A stretch of 41,171 nt of DNA from Nitrospirota bacterium. GTDB taxonomy: Bacteria > Nitrospirota > Thermodesulfovibrionia > Thermodesulfovibrionales > SM23-35. Below, in pieces: positions 2,305 through 2,858 of this stretch. The notes under the pieces were generated by a model. The model was given only the letters and a program-made list of their open reading frames with translations, had not been told where the DNA came from and made no database searches. The DNA is taken from positions 1-41,171 of the forward strand of contig JACAFF010000016.1 in the NCBI GenBank assembly GCA_013388455.1, written 5' to 3'. Position 1 is the first letter of the stretch, and each line of letters begins with the position of its first letter. Made by a program: the position numbers and the translations under genes.

Positions 2305-2544
2305 TCATGCTTCTTCTTTTATTAGTGATTTAACCTTCTCGAGATCAGGAAGTGGTTTCCCTTTATGTTTGAGTTTTCCATTGATAACCAGACCCGGCGT
2401 TGACATAGTATATTTCATGATTTCAAACATGTCTTTAACCTTCTCAATTTTTGCTTCGATCCCGAGTTCTTTAACCGCTTTTTTTACAATTTCTTCAAGC
2501 ATTAAACAATTCGGGCAACCCGGCCCCAGAACCTTTATTTCCAT
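2305..2544 (-). CDS. Small thioredoxin-like redox-active disulfide protein
   Basis: A 79-residue thioredoxin-fold protein with an N-terminal CPNC active site (Cys10, Cys13) in KVLGPGCPNCLMLEE and a later cis-proline region (STPGLVING). This is the pattern of the redox-active disulfide protein 2 family, often encoded beside ArsR and COG0701 permeases. It probably acts as an electron donor or metal/thiol carrier for an operon product (inference). Its start codon lies inside the end of the upstream selenoprotein gene once that gene is extended through its TGA (10-base overlap), which argues that the extension is real. Confidence 0.9.
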   Translation of the reverse strand: MEIKVLGPGCPNCLMLEEIVKKAVKELGIEAKIEKVKDMFEIMKYTMSTPGLVINGKLKHKGKPLPDLEKVKSLIKEEA

Positions 2545-2858
2545 TTTTGACTCCTTTCTTTCTTTAATAATTTTTGGATTGTTTCTACTGAAGGAACAGG
2601 CATGAGTCTTCCCGACTCATCGACGAACATTCTTCATGAGAATCCTTCAATATTAAGTGGCTGAACCTCTATACCGTTAATAAATATAGAGGGTGATCCC
2701 TTAAGTTTCAGTTCATCTGCCTGTGAGTTGTCAACCCGTTGGAAATTAATCACTGCTTTCAAGCCTTCACGAATTAAAGCCTCTTCTATGTTTTTTCTCA
2801 GCATAGGTTCTGAAGGACACCCTAATGATAAATAACAATCAATCTTTATTTCTTTCAT
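2535..2858 (-). CDS. Thioredoxin-fold selenoprotein with in-frame UGA (Sec75)
   Basis: A conventional reading stops at the TGA at 2634-2636 after 74 codons. Reading through gives 107 residues and a TAA at 2535-2537. The extension has the composition of a folded C-terminus (VPSVETIQKLLKK), and the context around the TGA reads GFS-U-RMF. From memory this matches a family of ~100-residue thioredoxin-fold proteins (named DF family (seleno)protein in databases) with GFSC/U-R-x-[YF], where Cys homologues carry Cys at this exact position. The N-terminal LGCPSE motif (Cys14) and the GSPSIFINGIEV strand also fit. A SECIS-like hairpin lies 20 bases downstream of the TGA. It is the first gene of the arsenic operon; its role is unknown, probably thiol/selenol redox chemistry. 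Confidence 0.82.
2602..2620 (-). promoter_or_regulatory. Bacterial SECIS-like hairpin
   Basis: On the minus strand, 13 bases after the TGA, a perfect 7-bp stem ATGAGTC/GACTCAT closes a 5-base loop GGGAA. The apical loop begins with G and lies 20 bases from the UGA. Known bacterial SECIS elements have a small apical loop with a G in its first two positions, about 16-37 bases after the UGA, so this hairpin fits. It lies within the coding extension, as bacterial SECIS elements do, and would recruit SelB with Sec-tRNA. Confidence 0.75.

Follow-up and report, generated by a model that had tools for sequence, protein, structure and literature searches.

Does the TGA that closes an apparent reading frame at the head of an arsenic operon end translation or specify selenocysteine (Sec), and what would a selenoprotein contribute at such a place? 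We analyzed this locus in a window of 41,171 nucleotides from a Nitrospirota genome, the window being the whole stretch of DNA under analysis, which starts at base 1 of contig C16.

Gene structure and operon context

On the minus strand, an ATG at 2858 opens a frame that runs in register through the TGA at 2636-2634 and continues for 32 sense codons up to a TAA at 2537-2535. With the TGA translated as U, positions 2538-2858 encode a protein of 107 residues, and the gene overlaps the following arsE gene by 10 bases. A rule-based search for open reading frames instead reads it as a 74-residue protein ending at the TGA. The operon continues with arsE, arsR, arsC and acr3, followed by a HypC-like gene and by the first part of what seems to be an ArsP-type permease gene (Table 1). 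A sequence-only reading of this DNA had proposed the same start codon, TGA, extension, stop and overlap, which proved exact on re-reading, and the arsenic operon that it had named is confirmed by profile matches for ArsE, ArsR, ArsC and ACR3. Upstream, no ArsR operator could be distinguished among the AT-rich palindromes. The small HypC/HupF-like gene, of a hydrogenase maturation chaperone family, lies 35 bases behind acr3 on the same strand, and a homologue is also found near ars genes in another genome (L103).

Table 1. Features of the locus and of fused homologues, with their coordinates and supporting evidence.
Feature	Position	Strand	Description	Basis
DF-like selenoprotein gene	2535-2858	minus	107 codons, Sec TGA is codon 75, TAA 2535-2537	translation with TGA as U; TGA kept in homologues; conservation beyond the TGA
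Sec codon TGA	2634-2636	minus	residue 75, motif GFS-U-R	same codon in 30 aligned homologues; Cys in distant ones
SECIS-like hairpin AUGAGUC-GGGAA-GACUCAU	2602-2620	minus	apical loop starts 20 bases after the TGA	synonymous constraint on codons; energy not above shuffles
arsE	2305-2544	minus	MTH895/ArsE-family thioredoxin-like protein	TIGR00412, 87.6 bits (cut-off 62)
arsR	1938-2303	minus	ArsR/SmtB-family metalloregulator	NF033788, 100.5 bits (cut-off 55)
arsC	1522-1941	minus	thioredoxin-type arsenate reductase	TIGR02691, 183.3 bits (cut-off 174.3)
acr3	453-1529	minus	arsenite efflux transporter	TIGR00832, 453 bits
HypC/HupF-like gene	172-417	minus	small protein	TIGR00074, 80.1 bits (cut-off 48)
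Fragment clustering with ArsP_1 permeases	2-166	minus	gene cut by the contig end	shared blastp cluster
Sec domain-MerB fusion	L129:6001-6984; L134:6001-6984; L135:864-1847			

Conservation across the in-frame TGA

The chance of 32 open codons beyond a stop is about 1 in 5, which makes the extension unremarkable by itself, and the local fold energy of the downstream hairpin was no better than that of shuffled sequences (z = -0.20), so that folding energy was rejected as evidence. As neither feature is remarkable alone, we built the case on comparison. Using the read-through protein as query against 199 related whole genomes (Nitrospirota), we obtained matches in 45, the window's own genome among them, with a TGA inside the match in 44 of these, representing many genera. 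Base-by-base inspection of 30 loci placed the TGA at the identical codon in every one, with an open frame behind it. Over the 18 codons following the TGA, pN/pS was 0.25, indicating purifying selection; third positions beyond the TGA differ at 0.57 compared with 0.18 for the first two, about three times more, and in most sequences both other frames are interrupted by stops. Distant, stop-free homologues from Nitrospirota and Actinobacteria (L053, L054, L060, L155-L158) carry Cys in the column of U75. Both homologues aligning across the TGA and Cys homologues at its position, as the sequence-only reading had anticipated, were thus found.

A candidate SECIS element

Bacterial SECIS elements are stem-loops 3′ of the UGA, with the apical loop about 16-37 nt away and a G among the first two loop bases. 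The window hairpin, with a stem of 7 bp beginning 13 bases past the TGA and a 5-nt loop at 20 bases, conforms to this description, its loop base G25 being invariant in 30 sequences. Its geometry is as the sequence-only reading had described it. Across the same 30 sequences the GG at loop columns 25-26 is kept, and the inner five stem pairs are kept in most; a few clade members, which have GCC or CCC where others have GAG, are unpaired in this register.

RNAalifold returned no consensus structure for the SECIS region, and stem pair counts, with 76% of cells paired, were not above column shuffles and revealed no compensatory covariation beyond them. For these reasons covariation was dropped and codon constraint was used instead. 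Glu81 is encoded by GAG in 22 of 22 sequences, where about half would be expected, and Leu85 by CTC in 24 of 30. These residues form the two sides of the stem and show the strongest codon constraint among the conserved residues tested in the gene, the same residues elsewhere in the gene having mixed codon use; the z-values for this constraint overstate its significance, because the sequences are related, and the within-gene contrast holds. The hairpin codons therefore appear to be conserved beyond what the protein requires. A bias in the Ser codons of the hairpin was not counted, as Ser is preferentially encoded by TCN along the whole gene.

Selenocysteine machinery and decoding of the TGA

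The source genome, which is 99.4% complete, encodes SelA, SelB, SelD and tRNA-Sec, all four of the components for which a search had been proposed. The selA match reached 622 bits, selB matched over its cut-off, a tRNA-Sec with anticodon TCA (UCA) was found, and selD (L048) is itself a selenoprotein gene with an in-frame TGA in the motif AGUASK. Co-occurrence with SelB was discarded as uninformative, since 183 of the 199 relatives have SelB. One TGA-containing genome (G002) gave no SelB match at a strict threshold; it holds two tRNA-Sec matches over the cut-off (L182; G002:C16:80860-80959).

From the gene structure, its conservation and the machinery we infer that Sec is inserted in vivo: UGA codon 75 is almost certainly decoded as Sec by the genome's own SelA, SelB, SelD and tRNA-Sec, with the downstream hairpin as SECIS. 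The selenoprotein reading is in this way strongly supported by TGA conservation, Cys homologues, Sec machinery and codon constraint. The view that the TGA is an ordinary stop, yielding a 74-residue protein followed by a leftover frame, agrees with the rule-based search and with a hairpin energy no better than chance, but it conflicts with the protein-level conservation beyond the TGA, with the in-frame fusion partners 3′ of it described below and with the distant homologues bearing Cys in its place, and we consider it extremely improbable. That a Cys or Trp codon was misread in sequencing or has recently mutated to a stop, for which nothing speaks beyond the one-base difference from Cys codons, has a probability close to nil: homologues in 44 genomes, spread over many genera, carry the TGA, and a scan of 84,980 species genomes with patterns covering the Cys-codon form turned up no close Cys member.

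Family placement

The NCBIfam entry NF049942, "DF family (seleno)protein", is named after hypothetical protein DF of deep-Sep, of unknown function (PMC12013277). Protein DF, from Desulfosediminicola flagellatus, was reported as one Sec member with no other TGA homologue and no conserved domain (PMC12013277), and a 2026 review lists it again without a function (PMC13188914). Previous knowledge of DF thus amounts to a hypothetical protein with one reported Sec case. The GFSC-R family that the sequence-only reading had proposed for the window protein does exist in the form of NF049942; the window protein, however, scores 46.9 bits over residues 9-96, short of that model's curated cut-off (70 bits), and falls in a separate clade. 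The TGA-containing L055 (92.7 bits to NF049942) and the Cys members align with it at U75. In the tree, the window clade stands apart from NF049942-type sequences with 100/99 support and a long branch, long branches elsewhere leaving its deeper placement unsure.

This clade, with Sec in every complete member examined, occurs in Thermodesulfovibrionales and some other lineages. Because the scan of 84,980 species genomes, run with alignment queries, returned no close Cys member, it appears from its sequences to use Sec exclusively. The absence of Cys members from the close clade, the link to mercury and the domain fusions go beyond the sequence-only reading.

Among more remote matches to the DF profile, L066 and L070 are Cys-rich and seemingly distant DF relatives, that of L070 being assigned to DUF2703 by Pfam. 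The actinobacterial Cys-type DF genes L157 and L158 are followed by a glutathione-reductase-like flavoprotein gene scoring below the MerA cut-off.

Predicted fold and invariant residues

An AlphaFold2 model derived from 33 sequences predicts a thioredoxin fold with a pLDDT of 81.9, and both Foldseek (probability 1.00) and VIA (Z up to 8.6) relate it to thioredoxins. A weak alignment to MTH895 (PDB 1ilo) places Cys14 at the first active-site Cys, and on this basis the CxxC of thioredoxin corresponds to CxxE here. Indeed, no CxxC active site is present: all aligned Sec members have C14-x-x-E17, and Cys8, Cys14, Glu17 and Sec75 are invariant in 30 Sec sequences, whereas the aligned Cys relatives lack Cys8 and Glu17. 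Judged by its distance from Cys14, Cys8 would occupy the position of the buried Asp of thioredoxin. The model thus predicts a thioredoxin-fold product in which Cys14 would replace the first active-site Cys and Glu17 the second, with Cys8 and Sec75 as two extra soft ligands; the roles of Cys8 and Glu17 are likewise putative.

Genomic neighbourhoods and in-frame fusions

We compared 46 Sec loci of the clade with 20 control regions, drawn from some of these genomes and scored identically. Arsenic genes (ArsE, ACR3, ArsP, ArsC) lie within 4 kb at 15 of the 46 Sec loci and mercury genes (MerA, MerT) at six, the MerA neighbour matching over its cut-off; together, ars or mer genes accompany 21/46 Sec loci compared with 0/20 control regions. 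At the remaining 25 of 46, the stretch examined holds neither ars nor mer genes, in part owing to short contigs, and the role may therefore be broader. In two genomes (L115, L116) the Sec gene lies away from metal genes, behind rpoA-like and ribosomal-protein-like genes.

In three genomes the frame past the TGA continues into an alkylmercury lyase domain (MerB, PF03243, 101-104 bits; Table 1). It continues into ArsE in L020 (TIGR00412, 98.8 bits), and at L140:2217-3215 into a methyltransferase nearest MduS (284 bits, below cut-off). As the downstream domain could start on its own, fusion is the simplest reading of these stretches and no proof; taken so, they would be true fusions of the Sec domain. 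A similar frame in L133 ends soon past the DF domain. In the Cys-type homologues L056-L059, the DF domain precedes an ArsC-type domain, which lacks one usual Cys (CTGNAVRS). If read by standard gene callers, such genes would be systematically mis-annotated, being truncated at the active residue and, for the MerB fusions, split.

A putative role in arsenic and mercury handling

ArsC, MerB, ArsE, ArsP/ACR3, MerA and MerT all make or use a soft species that seeks thiols, either As(III) or Hg(II). A thiol/selenol protein that receives this product and hands it on would suit both metals. The neighbourhoods and fusions point to a step of metal handling or transfer. We propose that the protein would accept As(III) or Hg(II) from the enzymes generating them (ArsC, MerB) and pass them on to efflux or reduction (ACR3/ArsP, MerA), the selenolate speeding capture and exchange of these soft electrophiles. 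That the gene encodes a selenoprotein and that this protein assists arsenic and mercury detoxification as a thiol/selenol accessory are, jointly, on balance probable.

The main rival retains the Sec gene and assigns its product the part of a dedicated redox partner, which would reduce the ArsC disulfide and keep MerB or MerA thiols reduced by way of a Cys14-Sec75 selenenylsulfide. The predicted thioredoxin fold, the thioredoxin-dependent type of the operon's ArsC, the frame shared with thioredoxin-like ArsE in L020, and a Cys relative whose fused ArsC-type domain retains CX5R and two Cys further downstream are all consistent with such a function. An ArsC reductant suits the arsenic half of the data better than the mercury half, however: MerB fusions and MerA neighbours, working by the usual mechanism, can do without a thioredoxin-type reductant, ArsC is missing from the vicinity of many ars loci, and the classical second Cys is Glu17 in this clade. 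We regard this function as rather unlikely, though it is a serious competitor.

Considerably less probable is a catalyst that cleaves carbon-mercury or carbon-arsenic bonds. MerB uses a CxxD...C triad, and the CxxE...U of the present protein could be analogous; Cys14, Glu17 and Sec75 occur without exception in the 30 Sec members, and neighbours include ArsP-type permeases and MerA. Against the analogy stand the genuine MerB domain fused to the protein at three mercury loci, the lack of Glu17 in the Cys relatives aligned and a fold that is that of thioredoxin.

Extending the accessory role, we tentatively suggest, with some doubt, that the apparently Sec-exclusive thioredoxin-fold domain may be a general plug-in for toxic-metal(loid) chemistry, capturing and handing on As(III) or Hg(II). 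One selenol module, lying next to its partners or fused to them in frame, would serve arsenate reduction, organomercurial cleavage, methyl transfer and efflux. If true, this plug-in would amount to a soft-metal shuttle based on selenium, for which the literature examined describes no counterpart, and the accessory role would make it possible to test directly why some bacteria handle arsenic and mercury with selenium. The arsenic and mercury operons and the in-frame fusions to MerB, ArsE and a methyltransferase provide, in any case, a functional handle on DF.

Comparison with known systems

With NF049942 the window protein shares homology over nearly its whole length and a common column for Sec or Cys. 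It differs in scoring under the cut-off within a separate clade, in whose members Cys8 and Glu17 are invariant and not missing as in the aligned Cys relatives, and in that the deep-Sep paper reported one Sec member whereas the window clade has dozens, and no member with Cys. Some Cys-type proteins matched by the DF profile belong to DUF2703 (PF10865), whose members are longer, Cys-rich and weakly similar to the window clade. The small ArsE/MTH895 thioredoxins (TIGR00412) have the thioredoxin fold in common with the window protein, neighbour it in the operon and, in L020, lie in frame with a DF-like domain, but they form a separate family with a CxxC active site and without Sec. The Sec-assisted organometallic (SAO) system, comprising SaoT, SaoL, SaoE and SaoC (Haft and Gwadz 2023, cited in PMC13188914), resembles the present case in tying selenoproteins to organometal handling, and among the relatives the fused MerB domain is nearest SaoL and a neighbouring permease nearest SaoE, both below cut-off. 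The window protein, in contrast, has no SaoT match, and its operon is an ordinary arsenic operon.
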